DNA from: Anadara kagoshimensis
Lineage: Eukaryota; Mollusca; Bivalvia; Arcoida; Arcidae
Reading direction: 5' to 3'
DNA length: 64,000 bases
Assembly (NCBI GenBank): GCA_021292105.1
Contig: CM037869.1
Coordinates: forward strand, 35,033,835 to 35,097,834
How positions within the stretch are numbered: the first letter of the stretch is position 1; every line of letters begins with the position of its first letter. Positions 1,661-63,850 of this stretch are shown piece after piece. Under the pieces are notes generated by a model. It was given only the letters and a program-made list of their open reading frames with translations. It was not told the origin of the DNA and ran no database searches. The position numbers and the translations under genes were made by a program.

Positions 1661-1784
1661 AAAACCGATTTCTGACTAAAATCGATGCAAAACTTTGTCA
1701 TGTTTCCTTTAAAAAAATAGAAAATTAAAAAAACCAAGTTTTCACAACGCATCACAATATTAGTAATTATTATCAAACATATTT

Positions 1785-1890
1785 TAATTTTGCAGCACTA
1801 AACAATCGTTTTGGAAAGAAATTCGTCATCACGCGTGCTCAGACCAAAGTTCTAAAACCTTCAAGTATTTTTAAATGATAAAAATGATAA
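1785..1890 (-). mobile_element. Diverged retrozyme-like copy with a degenerate hammerhead
   Basis: Read on the minus strand, this segment aligns with the ribozyme end of the retrozyme family (see 51915-52155). It has AGCAC for the 5' strand of stem I, TGATGA from the core, and TTTAGTGCT for the 3' strand of stem I. Core positions are altered: the C before TGATGA is G, and the GAAA box reads AAAA. It is likely inactive and the most diverged of the six copies. The upstream body of the element is hard to follow. Confidence 0.55.
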
Positions 1891-4270: not shown

Positions 4271-4476
4271 ATCGGAATTAACTCTTTTAGAAGTTATATT
4301 GCATGTTGTAATTGCCTGATGTGTCAGAAGGAAGGTATCTGGTCCATAAACCTGAGTATTTAATGAAACAAAACACATTATAGTTATCCTAGTGTATAGG
4401 TTCTTCACGGATTGACTACAAAGCACAATTCATGTATCTATTTACTGATTTCAATGTTTCATATATTCATTCAGAT

Positions 4477-4682
4477 GTACCGTACAGACTTGTCGAAAAT
4501 TTAACACTTAGCCGAACTAATTTTGGCAGCTTAACTCGACTTCTCTTTATGGCTTTCTGTCACCTGAGTTCTCCCTTTTGGCAACTTTTTGGTAACCAGC
4601 TGCCCGGATCTTGGTCATTCAGTAGCCGAGATTTGACGCCTTTTCGTTAGCTCAGCGTTAAACTTTTGACAGGTCTGTACTA
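4477..4682. mobile_element. CCTGTCGAAAG MITE, complete copy
   Basis: The element starts TACCGTACAGACTTGTCG and ends with the inverted form GACAGGTCTGTACTA, about 205 bp in all. The inverted ends extend some 35-40 bp (AGTTTAACACT...AGCTAACG in the consensus). The interior carries GGCAGCT and GGTCACTCGGTAGCCGAG-like stretches typical of this family. The element has no coding capacity. It is the most abundant inverted-repeat family here; flanking TA is visible at several copies. Confidence 0.85.
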
Positions 4683-7786: not shown

Positions 7787-8240
7787 TACAGTGCAGATCT
7801 GTCAAAAGTTTAACACTGGGTTAACTTAAAAGGAATCCAAGCTCGGCTACCTACCGAGTGGCCGATATATGGTTAACTTGTGGCTTAAAGATGCTATTAG
7901 ATACAGTACAGACCTGTCGAAAGTTTAACAATGGGTTAACTTAAAAGAAATCCAAGCTCGGTACCTACCGAGTGGCCGATATATGGTTAACTTGTGGCAG
8001 AAAGATGCTATTAGATACAGTACAGACCTGTCGAAAGTTTAACACTTGTCTAACGGATAAGTGTCGAATTGGCATGTAATCTCAGTCCTTGGTTAGCTGT
8101 TTCTCGTCAGTAGCTACATGTATATGTCATTTGGAAGCTTTTCGGCTACTGGCAATCCTTATCTCAGATACTCGACAGCCGAGATACGACTACTTGTTTT
8201 TTACCAAAGTGTTAAACTTTTGAAAGGTCTTTATTGTAGA
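7787..8240. mobile_element. CCTGTCGAAAG MITE with tandemly triplicated 5' end
   Basis: The MITE start (ACAGTACAGACCTGTCGAAA) occurs at about 7789, 7903 and 8017, each 114 bp apart, and the last copy continues to an inverted end near 8238 (GTGTTAAACTTTTGAAAGGT). The 5' part of the element has therefore been amplified in tandem. The 114-bp period matches that of the array at 10215-10830, which carries the opposite end. Confidence 0.85.
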
Positions 8241-10192: not shown

Positions 10193-10830
10193 CTAATGAG
10201 GGGTCGGGATAAGCTGCCAATTCGACTTAGTGTTAAACTTTCGACAGGCCTGTACCGTTCCTCTCCGCAACTTTTCGTTAACTAGCTGTCCCGGTATCTT
10301 GGTCACTCGGTAGCCGAGATTCGATTCTTTTTTCGTCAGCTCAGTGTTAAACTTTCGACAGTCCTGTACCGTTCCTTTCCACAACTTTTTGTTAACTAGC
10401 TGTCCCGGTATCTTGGTCACTCGTTAGCCGAGCTACGACTTCTTTTTCGTAAACTCAGTGTTAAACTTTTGACAGGCCTGTACCGTACCTCTCCGCAACT
10501 TTTCGTTAACTAGCTGTCCCAGCATATTGGTCACTCGGTAGCTGAGATTCGATTCTGTTTCGTTAGCTCAGTGTTAAACTTTTGACAGGCCTGTACCGTA
10601 CCTCTCCGCAACTTTTCGTTAACTAGCTGTCCCGGCATATTGGTCACTCGGTAGCTGAGATTCGATTCTGTTTCGTTAGCTCAGTGTTAAACTTTCGACA
10701 GTCCTGTACCGTTCCTCTACGCAACTTTTCGTTAACTAGCTGTCCCGGCATATTGGTCACTCGGTAGCCGAGATTCGATTCTTTCCGTCAGCTTAGTGTT
10801 AAACTTTCGACAGGTCTGTACTGCATGACA
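10193..10830. repeat. 113-bp array made from a MITE 3' end
   Basis: TGTTAAACTTTCGACAG starts at 10231, 10345, 10459, 10572, 10685 and 10797, giving a period of 112-114 bp. Each unit includes CTCCGCAACTTTTCGTTAAC, CTAGCTGTCCC and GGTCACTCGGTAGC. The array closes with a normal MITE terminus (GACAGGTCTGTACTG). It is therefore an expansion of the MITE end rather than an unrelated satellite. Confidence 0.92.
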
Positions 10831-11382
10831 TAATGGTTGACTAATTATAAACCTTCTCGACACCGACACGCGATACCTGAAATAGATTGTTTTTTCAAAA
10901 AATGTAAATTTTGAATATTAAGCCATTGTATCACTTTTTATTTGGATTCAAAGTTAACTAAAGAACTTGTTTTTGAATGACGTAATGTACTTCACGATGA
11001 CAAAAAAGTCAAAATCACTAACAACACACGCGCCTATACAGAAAAAAATACATTACAATATGATAAGAACAAAAAGCAAATATATACTAAGCTTATAAAA
11101 TAAGATGCATGTTAAAACATCTATGGAGTGAATAAAGGTAATGGAGATTTACGACCCAGTCAATATTCATCAGCTTAAATGGAGGCGGTCACCTCAGAGC
11201 GTCCAGAGAAAACCACCAACTGTCAACAAGCAAACCAACAAACTTTTCTCACACTAGAATTTGTTTTCCAGAGTGGAATTGGAATCTAAGCGGTGAAAGG
11301 CGCTGAGGTCTGTAAGTCGGCAGCTTTAGATTACACTGTCACCGAGAACCCTTCATAGTAAAAATCTGAGTGAAATTCTAAT

Positions 11383-11732
11383 TGGTCGTCCAGTTCTTTA
11401 AAATTAAAACTGGTATAATATGTTATAAACCACTGAGCCGGTATCTCTGCTGGTGGATGTTTCCCCAAGAATATCACAAGCCCAGTAGGAAATTATTGCG
11501 TATTATTGTCAGAAATATACTATTGTCAAAATTTTCCTCATAAACCTAAGGTATACTCCCTCAGGCAAAGTATTTCCTTAGCTACATTTGGTAAAATATA
11601 TTTTGGTCCTATGGGTATCGTTTCAAAATCTTGGAAAAAATTTGATTTCATAAATTTGGTCCAAGCACTGCTAATGAGGAATTGTATTCCGAAACGGTCG
11701 TCTAGTGCTGTAAATTGAAACTGGTATATGAA
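11383..11732 (+). mobile_element. Retrozyme-like element, longest copy
   Basis: The element begins with a partial ribozyme, GGTCGTCC at 11384-11391 followed by AAATTAAAACTGGTATAATA. It ends with a full-length hammerhead (11664-11709) followed by the matching AAATTGAAACTGGTATATG. The equivalent cleavage points, after 11390 and after 11702, are 312 bp apart, which would be the unit-length circular RNA. Body motifs GTATACTCCCTCAGGCAAAG, TATTTCCTTAGCTA and TTTGGTAAAATATATTTT are shared with five other copies. Retrozymes depend on enzymes of other retroelements; no protein is encoded. The 70-codon open frame at 11506-11718 is not a gene. Confidence 0.8.
11664..11709 (+). ncRNA. Hammerhead ribozyme, one core substitution
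   Basis: Stem I pairs AGCACTG (11664-11670) with TAGTGCT (11703-11709). The core reads CTAATGA (11671-11677) in place of CTGATGA. Stem II is GGAAT/TGT/ATTCC (11678-11690), fully paired. GAAA is at 11691-11694 and a tiny stem III is CG..CG, with cleavage expected after GTC at 11702. The single G-to-A change at the invariant G of CUGAUGA should abolish or strongly reduce cleavage. Confidence 0.8.
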
Positions 11733-13300: not shown

Positions 13301-13700
13301 TACATCAAATATAATATATAGAGTAACATAGTCATGATTAACTTAAAAAATTTGGGTCATATTTTTCTAAACGAGGTGTTTTAATCGACCTATATTAGGG
13401 AGCAAGCAAGCGCGACTCGTAGTGATACGGCTACGAAAAAAAGGACAGACCTGATACTGAGGGTTGTACCTACACACTGTGTATATAATATGTATGTATC
13501 ATAATTTGCACGATTCTTTTCAAAAATGACTTTTATCAGCTCCACTAATATGTGAGCATTTTGTTATATGTTCTGCATTATATTTGCAATAAGAAATAAA
13601 CTACATGTATATAGAAAGTAAGACAATTATGAAAGTACTCTAGCAGACATTGACAAGACAGACAGATTATCCAAAGACGGTTAACTAGTACTTATTCATC

Positions 13701-14092
13701 TACAGTACAGGCCTGTCGAAAGTTTAACACTAAGCTAACGAATGATTGGCAAATCTACACACCATCTCTTGGAACATTTTCTCGTACAGAACAGACCTGT
13801 CGAAAGTTTAACATTAAGCTTACAAATTATTGTCGAATTGTCAGCTCATTTCTGTAAGAAATATATAACCAGCTTCTCGCAGCTGTAATCAATTTCTCGA
13901 CAGCTTAAGGTCATGTTTCAATCACTTGGCATCCGATCTTTGACTCTGTTCCGTTAGCTCAATGTTAAACTTTCTATCTATCCTTCTGAAGCTTTTCTAG
14001 GTCACTAGCTAATGTTTCGGCCACTCGACAGCTGAACTTCGATTTCTTTTCGTAAGCTCAGTGTTAAACTTTCGACAGGTCCGTACTGTATA
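13701..14092. mobile_element. CCTGTCGAAAG MITE cluster (nested or doubled copy)
   Basis: MITE starts are at 13703 (ACAGTACAGGCCTGTCGAAA) and 13791 (ACAGAACAGACCTGTCGAAA). MITE ends are near 13960 (incomplete, GCTCAATGTTAAACTTTC) and at 14092 (GACAGGTCCGTACTGTA). This looks like one copy inserted in, or recombined with, another. TA flanks the outer ends. Confidence 0.82.
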
Positions 14093-27775: not shown

Positions 27776-28845
27776 TTATTTGCTAAAATATGACTATAAC
27801 CCGAGTTTTCTATGGCGCCTATCTATCAAAACCATAAAATAGTCTCTACGTTTGTAAAAAGTTAACGAAAGAGTGCATGGTTTTACACAAAATCAGTATT
27901 TTTCTGTCCTTTTCTTTGTACCCCTTTCTCTCTTCCTATCCGACTAAAGCTTATGGGGCGGCGTTTTAAGCTCAAAAATTTCAATCAGATAAAAAATTGA
28001 ACACAAGTCCAAAATGGGCACCATAGATTGACCGATCGGCGTTGCACATTTGGGCGATAGCATAGGACAAAAGAGCGAGAAAAAACGGACGTTTGAGGGA
28101 CGAAGTAATGGACATTTTAGCGACAGAATTTTAACCTCTTCCTTTAGCCAGACTAAAGTCTGTTGCCCCCTGTCCACTGCAGGGATATGGAAGTAGGATT
28201 TTGAGCAGGATAAAGTTTTCCAAATTAAAATTTATAAAATCCATTAAAAGTTTATCACTACATTAAAAAAAACTGTGTTAAAAACTTTGTAAAATTTACA
28301 GGACAAAGCTTAAAGTAAAAAGTAGTATGTTTTTGAAAAGCACAAAACATGAATTCTACGCCCTGACCGACATACCTTGTACCTGTCTAGGTAACTGGTG
28401 CCCGTCTAGAAAGACAATGATGAGCTAAACCTTGTCTAATTATTTATACAGGAAACAATTCCGGAGACCAATTATTTTCAGAGAAGACAGGTTCCCCATT
28501 CAGGATTATTTATATATACTTCCAAACACTGAAAAGTTCTTTACAAATTATCTATAGTGTTACTTACAATAGGAAAATATAACAAACGTACAAAATAACT
28601 CTTCATATTAACATTTTGTTTTTATAAAGGCTTGACTATTTATTTAGTAAATTAACACAGACGTACAAATGTACGTAATATTATTGTTAATCCAGACTTC
28701 TTTTGAAACTATTTGTGTAAGGCAACAAGCAAGCACAATCATGCCGGTCCATGTTCAAAACAAACCCCGAAAGCATATAAAAATGTGAATTTTCACAGGG
28801 CAAGTAATATGCTTCCGCAAGGTAAGAAAAACATTCAATTCAGTT
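27776..28845. other. Unique stretch
   Basis: No repeat shared with the window and no gene recognised. A minus-strand open frame (27944-28177) has no recognised motif. Confidence 0.4.
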
Positions 28846-30912: not shown

Positions 30913-31425
30913 TATTTACTGCCACCTTTAAAAGAAAAAATAGAAATAAAAATTATTTTCTCAAATCCATTTGACTCCGTAAACCACCACGTGTATGTAG
31001 CTAAAATTGTTGTCCTTTTGTTACGAGTTCATTTTCTTCGATAAAGATATTGTTTGGAGAAGAATGGGACTCACAAAGGACAACAATGAAGGCGTTAAAG
31101 CCGAAACAGTTTAATTTTCATCAAAGTTGGTTTGTGTTTATCCTGATTAATAGAGCTATTTAGATTTTAAATAGGTACACTATCGCGAGGTTGTACTGGT
31201 AAAAATCACATTATACTTTCCTATTGTCCACTTTACACTCGGTTGACTGACCCATGAATTAGCAACTGTTATCATAACAATAAAATTATTTTAAAAGAAA
31301 TCTAGTTTTACGATGGACTATTTTAAACAATAAACCAGATAAACATAATCGTCTGAATACTTCCAGTCCGGAACTTTTGTCCCGGAGAATAAACTTTTGT
31401 CCGGGAGAATAAACTCTGAGCCAAT
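30913..31425. other. Unique AT-rich stretch
   Basis: No shared repeat or gene recognised. A local duplication, ACTTTTGTCC(C/G)GGAGAATAA, lies just before the next MITE (about 31372-31411). Confidence 0.5.
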
Positions 31426-31426
31426 T

Positions 31427-31653
31427 CACAGTATAGACCTGTCGAAAGTTTAAAATTAAGTTAACGAATTATTGGGAAATCGGCACACCACCGCGTTAAC
31501 AACATCTCGACAGCTTCTATGGAAGTTGGTATTTACTAGCGTCTCTCTGCAGCTTTTCTGAACTTCTAGCTATTTTTTCGGCCACCCAGCAACCGAATAT
31601 CGACCCCTTTTCCGTTAGCTCGATGTTAAACTTTCGACGGGTCTGTACTGTAC
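31427..31653. mobile_element. CCTGTCGAAAG MITE, complete copy
   Basis: Starts ACAGTATAGACCTGTCGAAA and ends ATGTTAAACTTTCGACGGGT then CTGTACTGTA. About 225 bp with both inverted ends present. Confidence 0.88.
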
Positions 31654-34604: not shown

Positions 34605-34862
34605 TCTTTAATTACATATTATACCATTTTTTTAAATTTTACAGCACTAAACGGTCGGTTCGAAATACAATTCCTCATCAGTAGTGCTTGGACCAAAATT
34701 ATGAAACCAAAATTGTCTTCAAGATGTTGAAAAGATTACCAAAAGAACCAAAATATATTTTACCAAATTTAGCTAAGGAAATACTTTGCATGAGCTAGTA
34801 TACCTTAGCTTTTGAGAAATTTCAAATTTTAATTTGCAGCAAATTTAGACATTGTTTTAACA
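34605..34862 (-). mobile_element. Retrozyme-like element
   Basis: On the minus strand the body (AGCTAAGGTATACTAGCTCA, AAGTATTTCCTTAGCTAAAT, GGTAAAATATATTTTGGTTC, CATCTTGAAGACAATTTTGG) leads into a full-length hammerhead at 34643-34688, followed by AATATGTAATTA. Its 5' boundary is not clear. Confidence 0.8.
34643..34688 (-). ncRNA. Hammerhead ribozyme, nearly intact
   Basis: On the minus strand, stem I is AGCACTA/TAGTGCT and the core CTGATGA is intact (34675-34681). Stem II GGAAT/TGT/ATTTC includes one G-U pair. The GAA box is present, but the next base, which should be A pairing with U at the cleavage site, is C (34658). Stem III is CG..CG and the cleavage triplet is GTT. All strictly catalytic bases remain; only the closing pair of stem III is broken, so reduced activity is possible. 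Confidence 0.82.
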
Positions 34863-51914: not shown

Positions 51915-52155
51915 CCGCGATTTCCTGAAAATTTTATCTAAATAAGTTAAAATTTGAAATTCCTTAAAAACTAATGTATACTCCCTCATGCAAAGTATTT
52001 CCTTAGCTAATTTTGGTAAAATATATTTTTGTTCCTAAGAAATCTTTTTAACATCTAAAAACTGGTTTCTTAATTTTGGTCGAAGCACTACTGATGAGGA
52101 ATTGTATTTCGAAACGACCGTCTAGTGCTGTAGAATTAACACTGGTATAATATGG
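51915..52155 (+). mobile_element. Retrozyme-like element with an intact ribozyme
   Basis: About 240 bp inserted into the array just described. The body (ACTAATGTATACTCCCTCAT, GCAAAGTATTTCCTTAGCTA, TTTTGGTAAAATATATTTTT) leads to the hammerhead (52084-52129) and a short 3' part, TAACACTGGTATAATATG. Compared with the copy at 11383 the 5' part is missing, probably by truncation. No protein is encoded; movement would need reverse transcriptase from another element. Confidence 0.85.
52084..52129 (+). ncRNA. Hammerhead ribozyme, type I, all core bases present
   Basis: Stem I pairs AGCACTA (52084-52090) with TAGTGCT (52123-52129). Core CTGATGA is at 52091-52097. Stem II GGAAT/TGT/ATTTC is at 52098-52110 with one G-U pair. 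GAAA is at 52111-52114. Stem III is very short: the last A of GAAA pairs with U52121, and C52115-G52120 and G52116-C52119 can pair around AC. The cleavage triplet is GUC (52120-52122), with cleavage expected after C52122. The short stem III is typical of hammerheads in animal Penelope-like elements and retrozymes. Self-cleavage is a prediction from the motif. Confidence 0.9.
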
Positions 52156-52674
52156 AATCGATTAGGATGAAATACCATCGGACTGATATTGATAAGGATC
52201 AAGAATCCTCGGCCTGACATAGTCAACAAGGATTGATAAAAATCAAATGCTCTAAGACTGGTGTAGTCCACTGGGACCAAAGACCATCGAGATGATATAG
52301 ACCACTCGAGTTGACAGGGACCAGACTATCAAGCTGATATAGTACGCTCGGTTTAATAGGGACTCTGGACTGTCAAGCAGAAGTGAAAGAATTGGGTTGA
52401 TGTTGTAATGTTGGTATAGCCGTGTGATATTTTTTATTCATCATTAAAATGACCAGAACCAAAAGAAAAGCACTCGGGATGATTTAGAATTATTGAGTAA
52501 ATACGGACCCAAGACACTTGGTTTTATAAGGACCCCGGGCCGTCGAGCTGAAGTCGAAGACTTGAGTTGGTGTTGTGATGCTGGTTAAGCCCTGTTATAT
52601 TCGGAAAGGTATGGACGATTTGTGTTGCTAGAAATGTAAGGAGGATTTAGAAATGCAAATTGTTGTACAAATCA

Positions 52675-55391: not shown

Positions 55392-55730
55392 TGTAATATA
55401 TAATATAGAAATGCCATGGCGATTGGGAGAAGGGATTTCTTAGGATGTCTATGTAGTCCAGTAGTTGCCAATGCGTATGAAATGTGTCTCAACAACTCGT
55501 TTTTGGACAATAATTGTGTATTATTGTCAAAAATATAGTATAGTTTAAATTTGCTGCAAGTTAAAATTCAAAATTCTTCAAAAACTAAAACTCCATCATG
55601 CAAAGTATTTCCTAGCTAAATTTGGTAAAAATATTTTTTTGTCCTTTTGATAATCTTTTCAACATCTTGAAAACAATTTTGGTTTCACGACCATGTAGTG
55701 CTGTAACATTAAAATTTGTGTAATATGTAA
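55392..55730 (+). mobile_element. Retrozyme-like element with ribozyme core deleted
   Basis: The body shares AATTGTGTATTATTGTCAAA, CATGCAAAGTATTTCC and TTTTCAACATCTTGAAAACA with the copies at 11.4 and 34.6 kb. Where the ribozyme should be, the sequence goes from TTGGTTTCA straight to CGACCATGTAGTGCTGTAAC. This removes the 5' strand of stem I, the core and stem II, leaving only the 3' strand of stem I. It cannot self-cleave. Confidence 0.78.
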
Positions 55731-55734
55731 TTCA

Positions 55735-63455: not shown

Positions 63456-63647
63456 TGTATTACTGGACTAAGGCTGGTGGATGGTTTTGCTGTTTCACTT
63501 AATCTTCACCACATCGATGGACATTACATTTACGTCTGTCTCCTGACTTCAATGGCAGTGGTCTATTTTGTCTTGTTTCATATACTATTGACTTGTATTT
63601 TGTACTTTTCATGCTTGTTTTAACATCTTGTTTTCTTTTTATTGAAA

Positions 63648-63850
63648 TTGAATATTATACCAGTGCTCATTTTCTAGCACTAGACAGTCCTTTCGGAATA
63701 CAATTCCTTACTAGAAGTACTTCGATCGAAATTATGAAACCATAATTTCTTTTCATGGGCTTAAAAAAATTATCCAAAGGATCGAAATAAAATCAACAAA
63801 ATTTAGCCAAGGAAATACTTTGAATCAGGGAGTATACTTAAGTGTTTGAG
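63648..63850 (-). mobile_element. Retrozyme-like element with a degenerate ribozyme
   Basis: On the minus strand: ACTTAAGTATACTCCCTGAT, AAGTATTTCCTTGGCTAAAT, then a ribozyme region at about 63676-63722 and GGTATAATATTCAATTTCAA. Stem II (GGAATTGTATTCC), GAAA and GTC followed by TAGTGCT are intact. The core box reads CTAGTAA in place of CTGATGA, and the 5' strand of stem I is altered (AAGTACTT). Predicted inactive. Confidence 0.78.

Follow-up and report, generated by a model that had tools for sequence, protein, structure and literature searches.

The window analysed here, a stretch of 64,000 nucleotides from the bivalve Anadara kagoshimensis (contig CM037869.1, positions 35,033,835 to 35,097,834), carries a type I hammerhead ribozyme motif on its forward strand at positions 52084-52129. 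We consider it very probable that this motif is the 3′ end of a dead, 5′-truncated copy of an animal retrozyme without long terminal repeats (non-LTR retrozyme), whose life cycle would be the one proposed below. This reading draws on features observed in the sequence: the motif and its family, a repeating tandem unit, 3′ ends that are fixed and 5′ ends that are scattered, copies that cross the cleavage junction, and a palindromic stem III. The parts of the window copy are as follows; unit positions (u) are counted from the first base after the cut (u1).

51944-52158, plus strand: 5′-truncated solo retrozyme unit of 215 bp (unit positions 155-339, then 1-36; blastn with a two-unit query)
52084-52129, plus strand: type I hammerhead ribozyme motif (letters read directly, pattern and descriptor scans, covariance models)
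52084-52090 with 52123-52129, plus strand: stem I, 7 bp, AGCACTA with TAGTGCT (letters read directly)
52091-52097, plus strand: catalytic core CTGATGA (letters read directly)
52098-52102 with 52106-52110, plus strand: stem II, 5 bp including one G-U, GGAAT with ATTTC, loop TGT
52111-52114, plus strand: GAAA of the hammerhead (letters read directly)
52114-52121, plus strand: stem III and its loop, ACGACCGT; the consensus of the family has a palindrome of 8 nt, ACGGCCGT, that is broken in this copy
52120-52122, plus strand: GTC, predicted cleavage after 52122 (letters read directly)
52123-52158, plus strand: 36-nt tail from the cleavage site to the element's 3′ end (two-unit blastn query)

The motif has the core CUGAUGA...GAAA...NUH, three flanking stems and its open end at stem I, and is filed as a type I hammerhead by this core and these stems, not as a member of an Rfam family. 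In stem III, A52114 pairs with T52121 and C52115 with G52120, leaving GACC as the loop (2 bp). The first-pass annotation had placed the motif and each of its listed parts correctly, and had also been right in assigning the type I architecture. The simple core pattern occurs once in the window against 0.11 occurrences expected, and the full descriptor (three stems and NUH) matches only at 52084-52129 and in 0/300 dinucleotide shuffles. Together with thousands of family copies bearing all of the core letters, this bears out the annotators' view that the motif is no chance match.

Six related copies, that at 52084 included, had been reported in the window, and blastn with the two-unit query recovered all of them. 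The other five, found with the same query, are:

1771-1884, minus strand: related copy, from an older subfamily, with a mutated core (CGTGATGA, CAAAA)
11371-11728, plus strand: related copy, core mutated (CTAATGA)
34607-34851, minus strand: related copy, core mutated (GAAC, GTT)
55508-55732, plus strand: related copy without recognisable hammerhead, still ending at unit position 37
63642-63850, minus strand: related copy, core mutated (CTAGTAA)

The hammerhead region is kept in 5/6 window copies, and only the copy at 51944-52158 has an intact core. This copy sits inside a degenerate repeat array that is seen on both of its sides, and no open reading frame of at least 120 aa in the window overlaps it. 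Compared to the family consensus, its ribozyme differs at two positions, giving the G-U in stem II and the broken stem III palindrome. As the copy is solo and 5′-truncated, it allows one cut at most and no circle could be released from it. We call it a fossil insertion and probably a weak ribozyme. The description of the motif as intact is overstated for a solo truncated unit with a broken palindrome. The hammerhead had also been called the functional end of a mobile element; it does lie at one defined end, the 3′ end, the copy stopping 36 nt past the cut, while "functional" again goes too far.

The family was searched for in a genome of 1.115 Gb in 36 contigs, 19 of them large, with the window on contig C13. 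A 101-nt query gave 2336 first-look candidates, and the 40 scored ones match at 93-100% and are spread over all 19 large contigs. The exact 32-nt consensus core occurs 3061 times genome-wide (reversed control, 0), compared to 20 occurrences for the core variant of the window. Tandem arrays were found at two loci: L010 holds nine hammerhead copies at a spacing of 336-339 bp, of which five have the exact consensus core. The array in L009 has three copies. The tandem unit of ~339 bp, each with a type I hammerhead, falls within the 150-450 bp of non-LTR retrozymes; this applies to the family and not to the solo window copy. Its G+C content of 33% is likewise below the 50% bound for retrozymes. With this anatomy, the family is assigned to the metazoan non-LTR retrozymes, a known kind of element, with a unit sequence of its own. 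The annotators had rightly seen a dispersed mobile family; its retrozyme identity and the ~339-bp tandem unit had gone unrecognised.

Across the loci, 120 matches to the hammerhead region were obtained, and 104 of these have a length of 50 nt or more. Intact hammerheads were present in 45/104, with 44/66 in the first set of loci and 1/38 in the divergent set. Between the two subfamily consensuses, one of them that of the older subfamily, the hammerhead is identical at 45/46 positions. Identity is 43/60 over the 60 nt preceding it (P=0.0004) and 24/30 over the 30 nt that follow. A second well-kept block was noticed in both consensuses upstream of the hammerhead (unit positions ~196-248, CTCATGCAAAGTATTTCC to TTTTGGTCCTTT); it could be a promoter or a binding site for the reverse transcriptase (RT). 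The better preservation of the hammerhead than of its surroundings speaks against a reading in which amplification took place at the DNA level, making the arrays ordinary satellite DNA and the hammerhead an inherited passenger. Some loci were indeed copied together with their flanks (L014/L015, L024/L025, window/L011), and the units of L010 are nearly identical (0-3 substitutions), as such a satellite would have them; the 40 scored places, however, have mostly different flanks, and a single fixed 3′ end is combined with variable 5′ ends. We regard the satellite explanation as improbable.

The family has a fixed 3′ end. Among 52 mapped segments, which include a few duplicated loci and so are not all independent, 46 end at u34-43 and 50 at u27-43, with the other two at u17 and u181. 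The 5′ ends are scattered over 41 distinct values (circular concentration 0.22, compared to 0.96 for the 3′ ends). Most of the loci of these segments had come from a query ending near u38, and the retest query consisted of u60-260 only. It gave 22 loci besides L010, with the 3′ side readable in seven. Six of these body-selected copies end at u36, 37, 36, 39, 37 and 40, and the seventh continues into another unit, so that the cleavage junction is crossed in 7/7. Had the RT started from the 3′ terminus of cut monomers, ends at u339 would be expected; they were found in 0/6. From these ends we infer that copying used a circular template or an uncut multimer. By analogy, a fixed start with ragged 5′ ends resembles target-primed copying. 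The fixed 3′ end past the cut is a useful new observation on an otherwise known kind of element, and is not described in those parts of the metazoan retrozyme literature that were covered (PMC7229834).

A second trait of the family lies in stem III, where the consensus stem and loop, ACGGCCGU, form an 8-nt palindrome (two base pairs and GGCC). According to the modelled folds, ACGGCCGU lets two ribozymes dimerise, and the ACGACCGU of the window breaks the palindrome. The minimum free energy (MFE) fold of the consensus dimer is predicted to be exactly the double hammerhead, at -36.7 kcal/mol. For the window copy, the MFE dimer is another fold (-30.1 kcal/mol), with the double hammerhead at -20.0 or -22.6 kcal/mol, depending on how the middle mismatches are counted. 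Out of the 45 intact copies, 36 have ACGGCCGU and seven have ACGACCGU, and the latter is probably a propagated sub-variant without the palindrome. Genome-wide, the tetraloop position of stem III is changed in 409 copies, compared to 133 for core position G5 and 135 for the loop II position; among the tetraloop-position variants listed, 12/13 have A.

These features fit a life cycle in which tandem units of ~339 nt would be transcribed and each hammerhead would cut after GUC, best as a dimer through the palindromic stem III. The cut monomers would be circularised, and an RT would initiate internally, at a constant position ~37 nt beyond the cut. It would pass the rejoined (or never cut) junction, often halting early and so leaving 5′-truncated copies, and more than one round would give multimers. 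The likely enzyme would be the RT of a Penelope-like element, a type of element with a similar tail past a hammerhead-like motif of its own. Self-cleavage, circularisation, the starting point of the RT and the choice of enzyme are all steps that we infer.

Penelope-like elements are present in the same genome, in which the GIY-YIG family has 50 matches. In five open RT/endonuclease frames, GIY-YIG scored above the Pfam cut-off in 5/5; RVT_1 was above it in L076, L077 and L084, below it in L075, and unlisted in L085, which has a shorter frame. From their domains, these RT and GIY-YIG frames are assigned to Penelope-like elements. In addition, L078 and L082 were seen by eye to have a frame with C2H2 zinc-finger-like spacing just 3′ of the RT-endonuclease frame. 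A probe made from the L078 motif had 43 matches, of which 34 reach the probe end and nine stop early; in all nine, the end falls within an A+T stretch, 61-68 nt beyond the presumed cut. The stem III letters of L078 and L082 (ACAUGU and AAGCUU) are also palindromic. The retrozyme unit of 339 bp has no room for an RT and GIY-YIG frame. It shares with Penelope-like elements the fixed 3′ tail past the hammerhead (mostly u34-43), and thus behaves like them in its tail, yet it is no Penelope-like element. The idea that retrozyme sequence is a regular part of the nine Penelope-like loci was rejected, as only one retrozyme copy was found lying in L076.

By analogy, the comparison suggests, short of proof, that an enzyme of the Penelope type initiates copying within retrozyme RNA in circular or multimeric form. 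Our tentative proposal, which we hold at somewhat less than even chances, is that animal retrozymes parasitise Penelope-like elements. Both would have dimer-forming palindromic hammerheads and a fixed tail, the Penelope enzyme would start at that internal site on circular RNA and roll past the ligated junction, and the fixed 3′ end would be its signature.

Several results weigh against the proposed life cycle or its Penelope-like part, and are gathered here. A strict pairing scan of the nine Penelope-like loci found a hammerhead in 0/9. A CTGATGA core, a stem and GAAA, read by eye as hammerhead-like, are present in 2/9 (L078 and L082); Rfam lists no hammerhead for either, the first proper stem II pair is missing in both, and the contiguous stem I pairs number three in L078 (six in L082). 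The tails of the retrozyme and of the Penelope-like elements have little in common beyond A+T-richness and a TAATT end. The lack of hammerheads in the strict scan and in Rfam weakens the Penelope proposal and slightly raises that of mobilisation by the RT of a long interspersed nuclear element (LINE) of the RTE, CR1 or L1-like type, for which the fixed 3′ end would be the recognition end. LINE copies and those of short interspersed nuclear elements (SINEs) typically share one 3′ end and are truncated at varying 5′ positions, a pattern that the retrozyme ends fit, and the motifs on the Penelope side are only hammerhead-like. Against a LINE enzyme, no consistent poly(A) or simple-repeat tail was seen by eye at the ends, with a few abutting one (L016, L018, L098), and the distance from the ribozyme to the end is constant, which also holds for this genome's Penelope-like family. 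Mobilisation by a LINE is conceivable, at roughly one chance in three.

Further results of this kind concern the ribozyme and its circle. The first-pass annotation had named a covariance-model search as a check, with the lack of a significant hit counting against the motif. In the whole window nothing reaches the Rfam gathering threshold (for RF00163, Hammerhead_1, a curator's cut-off of 34 bits), which formally goes against the motif, and with E up to 10 no hammerhead was listed for the 401 nt around the site, for the whole window, or for the L010 array. A 67-nt stretch at the site has Hammerhead_1 as its best match, at 18.5 bits (E 0.016), with stem I out of register and the score below 34. 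The related copy L098 gives 28.1 bits (E 0.0005), in register and again below the cut-off; L096, L098 and L099 have an identical 46-nt core, and Rfam lists L098 only. Rfam was therefore rejected as a yes/no test, since it misses the L010 array as well as L096 and L099, and we judge it uninformative for this form of hammerhead because its filters lose such copies. A family covariance model (R1), trained on an alignment of 73 sequences including five window copies, recovers 5/6 window copies, all five from its own training alignment.

Covariation was not above that of shuffles in the 73 distinct copies, many of them recent, with 90.1% of cells paired. Folded by itself, 52082-52132 does not give the hammerhead as its minimum-energy structure, and monomer hammerhead folds are suboptimal for both the window copy (-6.0 vs -11.4 kcal/mol for the MFE) and the consensus (-8.9 vs -13.4 kcal/mol). 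The low Rfam score and the lack of covariation are what a chance hammerhead look-alike would give; set against the descriptor result, the thousands of copies with all core letters and the in-register L098 match, we hold such a look-alike to be extremely unlikely. The 339-nt circle folds no more strongly than shuffles (z -0.15; 81/200 shuffles as low), and a highly folded circle is accordingly not supported as a family trait. Target-site duplications, sought in 43 of the 52 segments, are not above random pairing (0/43 with a flank match of at least 8 nt). Finally, changes at G5 and in loop II are equally common (133 vs 135), which means that dead copies are not removed. On these counts, purifying selection was rejected for the copies that exist, and inserted copies simply decay.

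Among known systems, the non-LTR retrozymes of Mytilus galloprovincialis have units of 350-390 bp and about 5000 copies (Cervera and de la Pena 2020, PMC7229834). As far as the covered parts of that paper go, the Anadara family has in common with them a low G+C content and Penelope-like elements in the same genome, and is unlike them in its own ~339-bp unit, in the many solo truncated copies among those examined, in the fixed 3′ end ~37 nt past the cut and in the 8-nt palindromic stem III. Most retrozymes are reported there to have a highly self-paired circle, which is typical and not defining. The same portions of the paper describe the satellite hammerheads of newt and axolotl (HHR_Amex1 and HHR_Amex2), reported to cleave mainly as dimers, which resemble the Anadara hammerhead in a ~330-bp unit and a very short stem III (PMC7229834). 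Amex1 has a palindromic tetraloop and Amex2 two base pairs with a tetraloop, whereas here two base pairs and GGCC make the palindrome; in sequence and host, the amphibian hammerheads differ from the Anadara family.

Penelope-like elements share with the retrozyme a hammerhead-like motif near a fixed tail, an internal RT start, tandem or partial-tandem copies and a very short stem III (PMC11167929). For a lizard Penelope-like protein, reverse transcription begins at internal positions corresponding to genomic tails, and ATT targets are preferred; the hammerhead of that element is dispensable for insertion in vitro, which calls for caution with the Penelope proposal (PMC11167929). According to passages of a review, no motif indicates the element that mobilises retrozymes (PMC7761336). 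Unlike the retrozyme, which encodes nothing, Penelope-like elements encode an RT and a GIY-YIG endonuclease. Lunse in 2017 and Cervera in 2014 reportedly described Penelope-like elements with minimal hammerheads. Since the 3′ end is sharp and its distance from the ribozyme constant, and since the genome also has tailed Penelope-like elements, the question of which RT serves animal retrozymes can be tested directly. In itself, the window copy is an ordinary one.

The flanks of the window copy provide a relative date for its insertion. A near-identical partner with a similar flank, L011, lies ~754 kb away on the same contig, and two window copies (1771-1884 and 52060-52160) have 98-99% partners (L046 and L011, respectively) 754-755 kb away on that contig. 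The paired copies probably reflect a segmental duplication spanning 50 kb or more, and since the L011 partner has a similar flank, the window insertion is probably older than this duplication. A 5-nt pair, CGATT, at 51918-51922 and 52159-52163 was read by eye as a possible target-site duplication; where non-LTR retrozymes have such duplications, they exceed 4 bp.

Other repeats were also detected in the window. A candidate ribozyme resembling that of hepatitis delta virus (HDV) lies on the minus strand at 28137-28209 (RF02682, 33.8 bits, cut-off 44). Its E value is 3.8e-5 when 141 nt are scanned and 0.017 when the whole window is. With a 111-nt query covering the candidate, 195 first-look candidates were obtained; the 40 scored ones, of which one is the window itself, match at 81-100%, with 32/40 starting at query position 12 and 9/40 reaching the query end. 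From these boundaries, the candidate looks like a dispersed repeat of ~90 bp, little more than the ribozyme. Moreover, a dispersed family around TACAGACCTGTCGAAAGTTTAACACT is present in many copies and in both orientations (4467-4546, 8005-8084, 13690-13769, 31416-31495 and others), and related 47-bp and 113-bp tandem arrays were found at 23-398 and 10229-10821.
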